Source of the DNA: Nitrospirota bacterium
GTDB lineage: Bacteria; Nitrospirota; Thermodesulfovibrionia; Thermodesulfovibrionales; Dissulfurispiraceae
Assembly (NCBI GenBank): GCA_009773415.1
Contig: WSNO01000008.1
Span: 73,600-113,082 of the forward strand
Reading direction: 5' to 3'
Length of the DNA: 39,483 bases
The first letter of the stretch is position 1, and each line of letters begins with the position of its first letter. The position numbers were made by a program, and so were the translations under genes. The notes under the pieces were generated by a model. It did no database searches. It was not told the DNA's origin and saw nothing but the letters and a program-made list of their open reading frames with translations. Below are positions 5,111 to 29,894 of the stretch, piece after piece.

Positions 5111-6115
5111 TCACATCAACCACCGCTTTACGAATGCAGTTATCACGATGTTCACCACCGAAACCGGAATCAGAATCTTCCACCCGATTGCCATCAGCTG
5201 ATCAAAGCGGTAGCGCGGCAGGGTTGCCCGAACCCAGAAATAAAAAAACATAAAGGCATAGACCTTGATCAGAAACCAGATGATGCCGGGCACTTGCTCC
5301 AGAAACGGCAGCGCCCGCGTCACAAAGCCCGGCAGGGCCCATCCGCCGAGATAGCAGAGGGCAATAAGCGCCGCCATGATGTACATGCTGATGTATTCCG
5401 CCAGAAAGAAAAGCGCATACCGGAACCCGCTGTATTCGGTGAGGTATCCGGCAACCAGCTCTGTTTCCGCCTCCGGCAGATCGAACGGGGTGCGGTTCGT
5501 TTCGGCAAAAGCCGAGATGACGAAGACAACAAAACCGACAATTTGCAGCACCGCAAACATGCCGAGCGGCTGCTCGCGCTGCGCCAGCACGATGTCGTTG
5601 AGGTTCACCGAACCCGCCATAAGAAAGACCCCGGCAAGGCTGATACCCATGGCAATTTCATAACTGATAACCTGCGCGGCGGAGCGTATGCTGCCGAAGA
5701 ACGAATACTTTGAATTCGACGACCATCCTGCAACGATGATTCCGTAAACAGCGAGCGAGGCCATCGCAAAAATGAACAGGACTCCCACGTTGAGGTTCGC
5801 GATTGCGCCGTTGTTGAAAAACGGGATGACCGCCAGAGACGTCATGACCGATGCAACAACGATGACCGGCGCCAGAAAGAAGAGCGTCCGGTCGGCGGCA
5901 GCCGGTATGATGTCCTCCTTGAAGAGCGACTTCACCATATCGGCAAACGGCTGGAGCAGGCCCCGGAACCCGACCTCGACCGGTCCGATTCTTCCCTGCA
6001 TGCGTCCGATGACCTTGCGCTCAAAATAGGTGGCATAGGCAACATGCAGCAGGGTGACGCCGAAGACCGCCGCCACATAAAGCACCGTTTTCGCTATCGT
6101 TACAAGCAATTCCAT
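5111..6115 (-). CDS. nuoH: NADH-quinone oxidoreductase subunit H
   Basis: Heel subunit of the membrane arm that forms much of the quinone chamber and docks the peripheral arm. The 334 residues are close to E. coli NuoH (325). Conserved elements are GRIGPVEVGFRGLLQPFAD near residue 40, KSLFKED, SYEIAMG around 165 and the acidic quinone-site loop ETNRTPFDLPEAETELVAG near 205-225. About eight TM helices are present. A complete quinone loop indicates that this machine still reacts with quinone rather than being an energy-converting hydrogenase. It starts 2 bp after nuoC ends. Confidence 0.97.
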   Translation of the reverse strand: MELLVTIAKTVLYVAAVFGVTLLHVAYATYFERKVIGRMQGRIGPVEVGFRGLLQPFADMVKSLFKEDIIPAAADRTLFFLAPVIVVASVMTSLAVIPFFNNGAIANLNVGVLFIFAMASLAVYGIIVAGWSSNSKYSFFGSIRSAAQVISYEIAMGISLAGVFLMAGSVNLNDIVLAQREQPLGMFAVLQIVGFVVFVISAFAETNRTPFDLPEAETELVAGYLTEYSGFRYALFFLAEYISMYIMAALIALCYLGGWALPGFVTRALPFLEQVPGIIWFLIKVYAFMFFYFWVRATLPRYRFDQLMAIGWKILIPVSVVNIVITAFVKRWLM

Positions 6116-25961: not shown

Positions 25962-26123
25962 TTGACCTGCCCCCAAAAAACTGCTCCAGATGTTAAGTTG
26001 TATCTGGGCACAAAAAGGGAGGCGGAAATGAGCAGGAACGCGTATACGCCGGAGCAGATCGTCAAGAAACTGAGAGAAGCAGACGTTCATGGTCTGCAAA
26101 AAAAAGTGGCGGGAGAGTTATGA
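25962..26123 (+). pseudogene. Remnant of an IS3-family insertion sequence (orfA start)
   Basis: After the 79-aa gene comes TGACCTGCCCCCAAAAAACTG, which looks like an IS3-family terminal repeat. About 40 bp later an AGGGAGG site and the ATG at 26028 open MSRNAYTPEQIVKKLREADV, the standard beginning of an IS3 orfA transposase. After about 20 codons the match ends, with a stop at 26121-26123. The rest of orfA, orfB and the right end are missing. The remaining gap to 26277 (about 150 bp) shows nothing I can name apart from the restriction gene's ribosome-binding site. Confidence 0.75.
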
Positions 26124-26277
26124 GACTTTCTGTCGCCGAAGTTACGAGCCTTGGCCATGGCGAGTTATGCCCTCAGTCATGCACCATTATCGCCGAACGG
26201 CCTTCCTCCTACCTTGCCACCCTTGTCCCCGCATGGTAAGCTGTCTCTCAGTGCATATCGTGAAGGAGTAATTGAGC

Positions 26278-29112
26278 ATGCCCCTTTCCCTGAACGAGAT
26301 CAAGGACCGCGCCCTCGCCTTTTCCCGCGAATGGGAAGGTGAACAGGTGGAACGAGCCGAGGCGCAGAGCTTCTGGAACGACTTTTTCACCGTTTTCGGC
26401 ATCTCCCGCCGCCGGATTGCCTCGTTTGAAGAGCCGGTCAAAAAAGCGCTGCCGCTGTTTGAAAAAAATACTCCAAAAGGAAGCGGCAGGATAGACCTCT
26501 TCTGGCGCGGCGTGCTCATTGCCGAGCATAAATCACTCGGTCGCGACCTCGACACCGCTTACAAGCAGGCGCTCGGTTACTTCAGCGGGCTCTTCGAACG
26601 CGACCTGCCGAGATACGTCATTGTTTCGGACTTCGCGCGGTTTCGCCTCTATGATCTCGATAAAAACGTACAGACCGAATTTCTCCTCCGCGATCTTTAC
26701 AAACACATAAAGCTGTTCGGCTTTATCTCCGGCTATACAACACAGAAAATCGAGTCGCACGACCCGGTCAACATCAAGGCTGCCGAACGCATGGGCAAGC
26801 TGCACGACCGCCTGCGCGCCAACGGCTACAGCGGCCACCAACTGGAAATGCTCCTCGTGCGGCTGCTCTTCTGCCTTTTCGCGGACGACACCACGCTCTT
26901 TGAACCGCGCGGCTCGTTCCGCGACTTTATCGAGAACGCGACCAAGGAAGACGGCTCCGATCTCGGATCGCAATTGACCATGCTCTTTCAGGTGCTCAAT
27001 ATGCCGGAAGAGAAGCGCCAGAAAAATCTGGATGAACTGCTCGTCGTTTTCCCCTATGTCAACGGTAAGCTGTTTGAAGAAACCCTGCCCATCGCCGCCT
27101 GCGACCGCGCCATGCGCGACCTGCTGCTGGACTGTTGCGGACTGGACTGGGGGCTGATCTCTCCCGCAATCTTCGGCGCGCTCTTTCAGTGCGTAATGGA
27201 CGAAGAAGGCACCGCCCGCCGCCGTAACCTCGGCGCGCATTACACCAGCGAAGAAAACATCCTCAAGCTCATCAAGCCATTGTTTCTCGATGCACTATGG
27301 GAGGAGTTCGAGACCGCAAAGCGGAGCGCCAACAAGCTCTTCGAGCTGCACAAGAAACTGGCGCGGCTCAAGTTCTTCGACCCGGCCTGCGGCTGCGGCA
27401 ACTTTCTGGTCATCGCCTATCGCGAACTGAGAAAGCTCGAACTCGAAATCCTCCGCGCCGTGCGCCAGACCGGGCAGCAGCACCTCAACATCTTCCAGCT
27501 CGTGCAGGTTGATGTCGATCAGTTCTTCGGCATCGAGATCGAAGAGTTCCCCGCGCAGATCGCACAGGTGGCGCTCTGGCTCACCGACCACCAGATGAAC
27601 ATGCAGGTCTCCGAAGAGTTCGGCCAGTACTTCCGCCGCCTGCCGCTCATCCACTCCGCCAAGATCGCCTGCGGCAATGCCCTGCGCATGGACTGGAACG
27701 ATGTCGTCTCCGCCGAACAGGTTGACTACATCCTCGGCAATCCGCCGTTTGTCGGCAAACATTATCAAAATGCAGGACAAAAAGAAGACTTGGGGCTTAT
27801 CTTCTCGGGAGTAAAAGGCGCGGGCGTACTCGACTATGTGACAGCCTGGTATCTCAAGACAGTTCAGTATCTGCACGGCAACGACAAGGCGGCAGGGCTG
27901 CTTGACGGCCTGTTCGGCAAAACCGAAGGACCGGGCGACCGAGTAAAGGTTGCCTTTGTATCGACCAACTCCATTACGCAAGGCGAGCAGGTAGGCGTGC
28001 TCTGGTCTGAGCTGCTGCGGCTTGGCGTCAGGATTCACTTTGCGCACCGCACATTCAGCTGGTCCAATGAAGCGCGGGGCAATGCCGCAGTGCATTGCGT
28101 GATTATCGGCTTCGGGCTGCATGACACTGACCGGAAAACCATTTTTGAGTACGACAGCCCGAATGGTGAGCCGCACGCCATTGCTGCGGCAAATATCAAT
28201 CCGTATCTTGTCAACGCAGCCGACATACTTGTAGGGAAGCGAAGCAAGCCGATTTGTGACGTGCCGGAAATGGGCTATGGCAGCAAACCGGCAGACGGCG
28301 GCAATCTTATTCTCTCGGAAGCCGAAAAAACAGAACTGCTTACTGCCGAGCCGAGTGCAGAAATGTATTTACGTGCTTATGTAGGAGCGGATGAATTGCT
28401 CTACAACTACCGTAGATATTGCCTTTGGCTTAAAGATGTACCGCCTGCAAAGCTGCGTAGCATGCCTAATATTGTGATACGCTTAAAGGCCGTTCGTGAC
28501 ATGCGCCAAAACAGTTCGGACGCCAACACCAAACGCTGGGCTGAGTATCCAAGCCTGTTTCAGACCGATCGGCAGCCTAAATCAGACTATCTGGCAATTC
28601 CCGAGGTCTCTTCGGAACGGCGCAATTACTTGCCGGTTGGCTTCATGGGATCTGAGGTTATCGCAAGCAACAAAATCTATACGCTGCCGAATGCTACGCT
28701 TTATCATTTTGGAATGCTTTCTTCGGGCATGCATATCGCTTGGACCCGCTATATAGCAGGAAGGCTTGAGAGTCGCTACCAATACTCCAACCAAATCGCC
28801 TACAACAACTTCCCATGGCCGGACAAGCCGACAGAAAAGCAGGTTGCTGCTGTGGAGCAGGCGGCGCAGGCGGTGCTCGATGCCCGCGCCAGCCACCCGG
28901 AGTCGTCCCTTGCCGACCTGTACGACCCCGTTGCCATGCCGCCCGACCTGCGCAAAGCGCACCAGTCCCTCGACAAGGCGGTAGATGCCGCTTACGGAAA
29001 AAAGACCTTCACCTCCGACGCCGAGCGCGTCGCGTTCCTCTTCGACCTCTACCACCACTACACCAGCCTCCTGCCTCCGCCGGAGGCGAAGAAGACGCGG
29101 AAGAGAAAGTAG
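26278..29112 (+). CDS. MmeI-like (type IIL/IIG) fused restriction endonuclease-methyltransferase
   Basis: A single-chain enzyme of 944 residues that methylates adenine and cleaves unmodified DNA at a distance. The N-terminal nuclease has Asp73-X9-Glu83-X-Lys85 (GRIDLFWRGVLIAEHKS), the same spacing as the MmeI catalytic D-X9-EXK. A helical linker follows. The methyltransferase has motif I FFDPACGCGNFL near 366 (Ser to Cys compared with the usual GSGNF) and motif IV LGNPPF near 486. The C-terminal third is the target-recognition part. I use ATG 26278 with GAAGGAG nine bases upstream; the TTG at 26272 is too close to that site. It lies next to an IS remnant, consistent with horizontal gain. Confidence 0.92.
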   Translation: MPLSLNEIKDRALAFSREWEGEQVERAEAQSFWNDFFTVFGISRRRIASFEEPVKKALPLFEKNTPKGSGRIDLFWRGVLIAEHKSLGRDLDTAYKQALGYFSGLFERDLPRYVIVSDFARFRLYDLDKNVQTEFLLRDLYKHIKLFGFISGYTTQKIESHDPVNIKAAERMGKLHDRLRANGYSGHQLEMLLVRLLFCLFADDTTLFEPRGSFRDFIENATKEDGSDLGSQLTMLFQVLNMPEEKRQKNLDELLVVFPYVNGKLFEETLPIAACDRAMRDLLLDCCGLDWGLISPAIFGALFQCVMDEEGTARRRNLGAHYTSEENILKLIKPLFLDALWEEFETAKRSANKLFELHKKLARLKFFDPACGCGNFLVIAYRELRKLELEILRAVRQTGQQHLNIFQLVQVDVDQFFGIEIEEFPAQIAQVALWLTDHQMNMQVSEEFGQYFRRLPLIHSAKIACGNALRMDWNDVVSAEQVDYILGNPPFVGKHYQNAGQKEDLGLIFSGVKGAGVLDYVTAWYLKTVQYLHGNDKAAGLLDGLFGKTEGPGDRVKVAFVSTNSITQGEQVGVLWSELLRLGVRIHFAHRTFSWSNEARGNAAVHCVIIGFGLHDTDRKTIFEYDSPNGEPHAIAAANINPYLVNAADILVGKRSKPICDVPEMGYGSKPADGGNLILSEAEKTELLTAEPSAEMYLRAYVGADELLYNYRRYCLWLKDVPPAKLRSMPNIVIRLKAVRDMRQNSSDANTKRWAEYPSLFQTDRQPKSDYLAIPEVSSERRNYLPVGFMGSEVIASNKIYTLPNATLYHFGMLSSGMHIAWTRYIAGRLESRYQYSNQIAYNNFPWPDKPTEKQVAAVEQAAQAVLDARASHPESSLADLYDPVAMPPDLRKAHQSLDKAVDAAYGKKTFTSDAERVAFLFDLYHHYTSLLPPPEAKKTRKRK

Positions 29113-29113
29113 C

Positions 29114-29761
29114 GTGATTATCTATCTGGACGAGTCGGGCGATCTGGGCTTTGATTTCTCGAAACCAAAAACAACACGGAAGTTTGTCATTACTTTGCTG
29201 GTCTGCGAAAACAAGAATGCCTCGGACTCTTTTCGCTTCGCCGTTCGCCGCACGCTCAAGAACAAACTGAATAACGGGAAGAACCGGTCTGTGCATGAAT
29301 TGAAAGGCACAGAGACCGCCCTGCCGATAAAGCAATATTTCCACCGGCAGCTTGGAACGAATGGATGGCACATTTACACGGTTGTCCTGAACAAACAGCG
29401 CGTAAATGATGACTTGAGAAAGCCTCTTGCCAAGAAGAAACTTTACAACTTTCTTGCCCGCTTTATCCTCGAAAAAATAGATTTATCCCTTGCCGCTCCG
29501 GCTGTAACGCTTATCCTTGACCGGTGCAAAAACAGGGATGAAATTCGCGACTTCAATAGCTATGTCGAGAATCAGCTTCAGGCTCTCTTGCCGCTGAACA
29601 TCCCGCTCAATATTTATCATGAACGTTCTCATGAAAATGCGGGGCTTCAGGCGGTTGATCTGTTTTGCTGGGGGATATTCAGAAAATACGAGAAACTGGA
29701 TACAGCATGGTATGAAATGTATCGCAGCTCCATCATTTACGAGACAGAATACCTTCGATAG
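29114..29761 (+). CDS. DUF3800 protein coupled to the restriction gene
   Basis: A 215-residue protein starting at the GTG 29114, one base after the stop of the restriction-methylation gene. An open frame reaching back to 28985 is Arg/Ser-rich shadow sequence. DUF3800 marks are IIYLDESGDLGFDF at the N-terminus, VTLILDRCKNRDE in the middle and ENAGLQAVDLFCWGIFRKYE near the end. The acidic residues are arranged as in RNase H-fold nucleases, to which this family is thought to be related. The extreme proximity suggests it works in the same defence unit. Its activity is unknown. Confidence 0.88.
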   Translation: MIIYLDESGDLGFDFSKPKTTRKFVITLLVCENKNASDSFRFAVRRTLKNKLNNGKNRSVHELKGTETALPIKQYFHRQLGTNGWHIYTVVLNKQRVNDDLRKPLAKKKLYNFLARFILEKIDLSLAAPAVTLILDRCKNRDEIRDFNSYVENQLQALLPLNIPLNIYHERSHENAGLQAVDLFCWGIFRKYEKLDTAWYEMYRSSIIYETEYLR

Positions 29762-29766
29762 GCAAT

Positions 29767-29859
29767 AAAAAAGACGGCCCCTGTTATGCCGATATCCCCG
29801 AGGCTGAAGCCAACCGATGGAAGGGAACACCCCGGGCACACAACAGGTCTTATCCGTCT
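29767..29859 (-). ncRNA. Unassigned structured small RNA, about 93 nt
   Basis: A stand-alone RNA gene predicted from promoter, fold and terminator. The 5' end at 29859 reads AGACGG, which pairs with CCGUCU just before a run of Us (29767-29772). Inside, CCUGUU-GU-GUGCC (29847-29835) pairs with GGCAU-AACAGG (29790-29780) over 11 bp with a two-base bulge. Further in, UUCCC can pair with GGGGA around a small apical stem. The whole is one long interrupted hairpin ending in an intrinsic terminator. I looked for 4.5S SRP RNA, tmRNA and common riboswitch cores and found none; 6S RNA is normally longer. No protein gene follows on this strand. Confidence 0.72.
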
Positions 29860-29865
29860 GGTTCT

Positions 29866-29894
29866 AAATTAGCAGACGCTAAGCACTTTGTCAA
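29866..29894 (-). promoter_or_regulatory. Near-consensus sigma-70 promoter of the small RNA
   Basis: On the minus strand, TTGACA (29894-29889) is separated by exactly 17 bases from TAATTT (29871-29866). The start expected seven bases downstream (29859) coincides with the first base of the RNA's closing stem. This is the best promoter match I found in the window. Confidence 0.8.

Follow-up and report, generated by a model that had tools for sequence, protein, structure and literature searches.

A DUF3800-V small RNA gene placed tail-to-tail against a DUF3800 gene in a Nitrospirota restriction–modification locus

What does the short hairpin-forming element, bounded by promoter- and terminator-like signals, encode on the minus strand of a 39,483-nt stretch of a Nitrospirota bacterium genome (contig WSNO01000008.1, positions 73,600 to 113,082; hereafter the window)? 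A preliminary description had read it as an orphan small RNA gene of about 93 nt in which no known RNA family core was recognised, perhaps a diverged housekeeping RNA or an unrecorded regulator. We find that the element is almost certainly a DUF3800-V small RNA gene, and the reading as an independent small RNA gene with a predicted promoter and terminator of its own is supported, with these features:

29767–29860, minus strand: predicted transcript of the DUF3800-V small RNA, with ends inferred from the −10 element and the T-tract
29768–29865, minus strand: match to Rfam RF02964 (score 52.2 bits, gathering threshold 37.4; model positions 1–96 of 96)
29889–29894, minus strand: −35 element TTGACA of the RNA promoter, read in the sequence
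29866–29871, minus strand: −10 element TAATTT of the RNA promoter, read in the sequence; weak (3 of 6 positions match TATAAT), with a 17-nt spacer
29854–29858, minus strand: 5′ arm of the basal stem, GACGG, pairing with 29773–29777
29773–29777, minus strand: 3′ arm of the basal stem, CCGTC, pairing with 29854–29858
29767–29772, minus strand: T-tract of the intrinsic terminator, six T, read in the sequence

Re-reading of the minus strand reproduced the original placement, the TTGACA-N17-TAATTT geometry, the T-tract and the start at the closing stem; transcription is expected to begin near 29860, at the basal stem, giving an RNA of about 94–95 nt (about 94 nt from the predicted ends), in line with the size first given. 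The promoter had been called near-consensus, which is accurate for the perfect −35 element and generous for the −10 element. The Rfam scan of this strand that had been proposed named the RNA and placed it in a known family after all: RF02964 (DUF3800-V) is the sole Rfam 15 family that matches, over the full model and with an E-value of 8e-9 when the whole window is searched. The RNA scores above the gathering threshold of this family and has a DUF3800 gene nearby, its secondary structure agrees with that of the family and differs in nothing essential, and its GACGG/CCGTC basal stem places it in a subtype that tracks the subclade of its DUF3800 protein. The DUF3800-V family reportedly goes back to a survey published in 2017, which described 224 candidate structured RNAs, and the window locus adds a copy to it. 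Known housekeeping RNAs were rejected, as no second Rfam family matched and no tRNA or tmRNA was found, and a housekeeping role is practically excluded by the scarcity of the RNA, which only 22 genomes in a sample of 396 from the phylum carry. The alternative of an unrecorded regulator was half right, in that the family is on record in Rfam and its function is not; we found no reported function for DUF3800 RNAs in the literature searched, which did not cover the 2017 survey.

Judged from its own sequence alone, the small RNA does not stand clearly beyond chance, because its fold is only mildly better than that of shuffled sequences (−39.3 versus −33.3 kcal/mol, z −1.5), its −10 element is weak, and a simple promoter and terminator scan, whose list does not include the TTGACA/TAATTT site, gave no clear excess of such sites in the region. 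These weak single-sequence statistics are the point in favor of a promoter and hairpin that arose by chance with no gene behind them, a reading that we consider negligible given that the Rfam match and covariation refute it. That the small RNA is real follows from the family match, from covariation, and from a promoter that most homologues have at the corresponding position. Covariation had been named as a check, and across 82 homologues 97% of cells pair and 18 of 20 base pairs have changed on both sides while still pairing, with 392 two-sided paired changes compared to 117 in shuffles and a covariation score of 0.70 compared to 0.27 in shuffled alignments and at most 0.12 when slid. This alignment was fitted to the covariance model, and an unfitted alignment of 29 sequences already contained two-sided changes at 14 of 20 pairs. 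The basal stem, which lies outside the covariance model, forms 5 of 5 pairs in 72 of 80 homologues, compared to 37.5% with shuffled partners. Promoter scores reach at least 9 of 12 in 62 of 78 loci and in 12% of shuffled sequences, with the homologous promoters at a fixed distance and the −10 element mostly 6–7 nt upstream of the stem, and the terminator position is T-rich in 70 of 76 homologues. As read from these alignments, the DUF3800-V RNA forms a hairpin of about 95 nt that is conserved and covaries, with a predicted promoter and terminator of its own.

The description of the RNA as an orphan gave way on the opposite strand, where the following two genes run toward it:

26272–29112, plus strand: MmeI-like type IIG restriction enzyme-methyltransferase (PF20473, PF20466, PF20464, PF20467)
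29114–29761, plus strand: DUF3800 protein gene of 215 aa with a GTG start (PF12686), convergent with the RNA

The DUF3800 stop codon and the U-tract of the RNA meet tail-to-tail with 5 nt between them. The protein matches the whole of PF12686 (1–149 of 149; 57.8–58.3 bits, cut-off 21), and its GTG start was chosen from alignment A1 together with the sequence. The MmeI-like gene (PADLOC PDLC03598, 1204 bits) and the DUF3800 gene are separated by a single base. At 26040–26123 on the plus strand, the end of an open reading frame (RNAYTPEQIVKKLREADVHGLQKKVAGEL), for which Pfam gave no match, looks like the first part of an IS3-type orfA that is cut off immediately ahead of the MmeI-like gene.

How general is this arrangement? 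Relatives were found with a profile of RNA-adjacent DUF3800 proteins, and 80 genes chosen by protein alone were kept and searched for the RNA with a covariance model for which 29 RNAs from Nitrospirota had served as the input; these relatives occur in Desulfobacterota, Pseudomonadota, Chloroflexota, Planctomycetota, Omnitrophota, Actinomycetota, Cyanobacteria and other groups. The RNA lies on the opposite strand, convergent and at the 3′ end, in 79 of the 80 genes, and Rfam's own model recovers it in all 27 tested genomes that had been selected by the protein, 26 of them above its cut-off. In the sole exception (L127) the DUF3800 C-terminus is damaged and its end replaced by transposase-like open reading frame sequence (the transposase was recognised by eye), and no intact DUF3800 gene lacking the RNA was seen among these 80 related, protein-selected genes. 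Three of the DUF3800 genes carry a premature stop, and 73 of the 76 others stop between −20 and +18 nt from the RNA end, with a median of 4. On this sequence survey, the DUF3800-V RNA is paired near-invariably and tail-to-tail with a DUF3800 gene of one clade. Protein and RNA distances are correlated (r = 0.83, with 0 of 2000 permutations as high), a co-divergence that physical linkage alone could produce. The DUF3800-VII (RF02967) and DUF3800-IX (RF02968) RNAs, which are separate Rfam families with their own models beside other DUF3800 genes, are likewise convergent, with their 3′ ends at or near the DUF3800 stop codon.

Two further DUF3800 genes that lack an Rfam RNA have features of their own in the 3′ flank. 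About 0–180 nt beyond the stop at 2256 of one (L058) lies a convergent TTGACA...TATAAA-like promoter, perhaps that of a DUF3800-type RNA not yet in Rfam, and directly behind the stop at 2136 of the other (L077) lies a hairpin, CCCCGTGTG...CACACGAGG, that is another candidate for an unrecorded DUF3800 RNA. Cargo of phages or of common plasmids was rejected, since no phage match and just 6 plasmid records, one at 61% identity, were found.

The tail-to-tail layout itself suggests one way in which the RNA might act, as a regulator in cis that pairs with read-through DUF3800 mRNA or whose convergent transcription collides with that of the gene, comparable to a type I antitoxin at a 3′ end. Since the DUF3800 stop abuts the RNA 3′ end, an mRNA without a terminator of its own would include sequence fully complementary to the RNA. 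A covarying structure is not required for antisense action, however, and the pairing of cognate RNAs with mRNA starts has a mean rank of 0.47 where chance gives 0.5. The RNA is also kept where the DUF3800 gene is mostly deleted, and on balance we judge regulation in cis to be distinctly unlikely. The narrower proposal of antisense control at the DUF3800 translation start was rejected outright, as duplex energies show no cognate preference.

Retention of the RNA without its gene was seen when loci were selected by RNA. Among 30 such loci in the phylum, the DUF3800 gene is intact at 14, frameshifted, mostly deleted or a remnant at 8–9 (the remnant at L014 was read by eye and that at L022 comprises 8 residues only) and absent at 5, while one of the rest is a tandem RNA and one meets a contig end. 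RNA base pairs are intact at 99% beside broken genes, 93% where there is no gene and 95% beside intact genes. The genome that contains the window carries a second DUF3800-V RNA (L003, contig C16, 6280–6497; 65.4 bits) within a type I restriction–modification operon, between an SLFN_AlbA_2 gene and hsdM. No DUF3800 domain was detected on contig C16, but 44 codons from the end of such a gene persist against this second RNA, so the protein gene has been mostly deleted and the RNA has been kept together with its promoter. An excess of RNA-only over protein-only loci fits an antidote, but the gene is about 6.5 times the length of the RNA and breaks first while the RNA decays more slowly, so the excess is partly expected and is suggestive of an antitoxin rather than proof of one.

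The RNA also occurs in several copies. One locus (L035, G340:C53) has tandem DUF3800-V RNAs at 5115–5213 and 5581–5676, of which the second alone abuts the DUF3800 gene, and two others (L109 and L090) have two copies each. A copy at L030 (1501–1637), beside a DUF3800 remnant, is interrupted in the apical part of the hairpin by roughly 40 inserted nt. The genome of a KSB1 bacterium (G464) has eight copies (L171 and L194–L200), with the DUF3800 genes alongside intact, internally deleted or nearly absent.

The position of the second RNA beside hsdM raises a different possibility, that the RNA regulates adjoining restriction–modification genes or other cellular targets and that DUF3800 is a mere linked neighbor or a processing enzyme. 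Restriction–modification genes are indeed frequent on both flanks. HsdM is the gene next beyond the RNA in 11 of 75 loci, and among the upstream neighbors at the 75 loci, frequently only a few bases away, are ResIII helicases (8), N6 methylases (5), type I specificity subunits (4) and MmeI proteins (3), with type IIG, type I and DISARM-like proteins represented. N6_Mtase genes account for 16 of 150 neighbors, against a rough expectation of 0.2–0.3 that assumes about 2,600 genes per genome. Many loci, however, lack an adjoining restriction–modification gene while DUF3800 is constant, which makes this possibility very unlikely. Many are not visibly in defense loci and some lie among ordinary genes; linkage of the DUF3800-V RNA to restriction–modification is common, not defining.

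The partner that the linkage points to is probably the protein itself, with the RNA acting in trans and specifically on its cognate DUF3800 protein, as its RNA partner. Residues D6, E7, D10, E62 and D136 are invariant in 77 DUF3800 sequences; a sequence search of solved structures found no relative of the DUF3800 protein, and an NCBIfam search found nothing. Published work predicts an RNase H fold for DUF3800 and places the protein alongside Cas12a2 and type VI-F CRISPR loci (PMC10910872; PMC12669027). This fold and company, together with the near-invariant linkage, the co-divergence and the covarying RNA structure, are what favors the main rival to our preferred reading, an obligate ribonucleoprotein in which the RNA would be a structural cofactor or recognition RNA needed for DUF3800 nuclease activity. 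The transcript, however, spans basal stem to terminator with no variable guide, and some RNA copies have outlasted the protein, an observation that target size may account for. We regard an obligate ribonucleoprotein as somewhat unlikely.

We tentatively prefer, at a little under an even chance, that the RNA mainly keeps the DUF3800 nuclease inactive, like an RNA antitoxin. The RNA would bind its cognate DUF3800 protein and hold the predicted nuclease inactive, and its separate promoter would keep it in excess. If the supply of RNA failed, as it might when host transcription is shut down by a phage, the nuclease would be released and could attack nucleic acid of the cell or the phage, and in the window the module behind the type IIG restriction–modification gene would form a second line of the same defense locus. 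Counted toward this explanation are the family match, the linkage, covariation, the RNA's own promoter, co-divergence and the VII and IX layout, and also the RNAs without an intact protein, the defense context, the RNase H-fold literature and the precedent of AbiF. The architecture, the near-absence of protein without RNA, the surviving RNAs and the restriction–modification setting turn a label, associated with DUF3800, into a specific and testable proposal of an RNA-controlled nuclease. To the literature searched, this analysis adds the quantified architecture, its extension to the VII and IX families, the RNA-only survivors and the defense-locus setting. A broader and more doubtful possibility is that DUF3800 RNAs make up a new class of RNA antitoxins, or of obligate RNA partners, each encoded convergently with the RNase H-fold nuclease under its control; such modules would be spread across many phyla, often as a second defense layer in restriction–modification loci.

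Among known systems, type I toxin–antitoxin pairs have an antisense RNA that targets mRNA encoding a small hydrophobic toxin; here the neighbor is a 215-aa DUF3800 protein, and no cognate pairing is seen at the mRNA start. TnpB-type RNase H-fold nucleases require omega RNAs, in which a variable guide segment follows the RNA, while the predicted DUF3800-V transcript is bounded by its basal stem and terminator and leaves no room for the guide of a TnpB or IscB system. The type III antitoxins of ToxIN, CptIN and TenpIN are tandem-repeat pseudoknot RNAs encoded upstream of the toxin in one operon (PMC5086642). By analogy with these systems, the DUF3800-V RNA would hold a nuclease inactive, but it is a single hairpin, convergent and with its own promoter, and the locus lacks the type III hallmark of tandem repeats upstream in the same operon with a terminator between. 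A precedent is AbiF, a toxic protein that is bound and neutralised by the neighboring RNA RCd22, a type III-like antitoxin that its authors trace to the 2017 RNA survey (PMC12373285). Both are structured RNAs from the same survey beside a protein gene, whereas RCd22 lies upstream of its gene, has two motif copies and is paired with an Abi_2 protein, and neutralisation is proven for RCd22 only. If confirmed, the DUF3800-V RNA would join AbiF as a further case in which a structured RNA family proves to be an antitoxin, and would add a defense module found in many phyla; we do not file the module as type III, but it may work like one.
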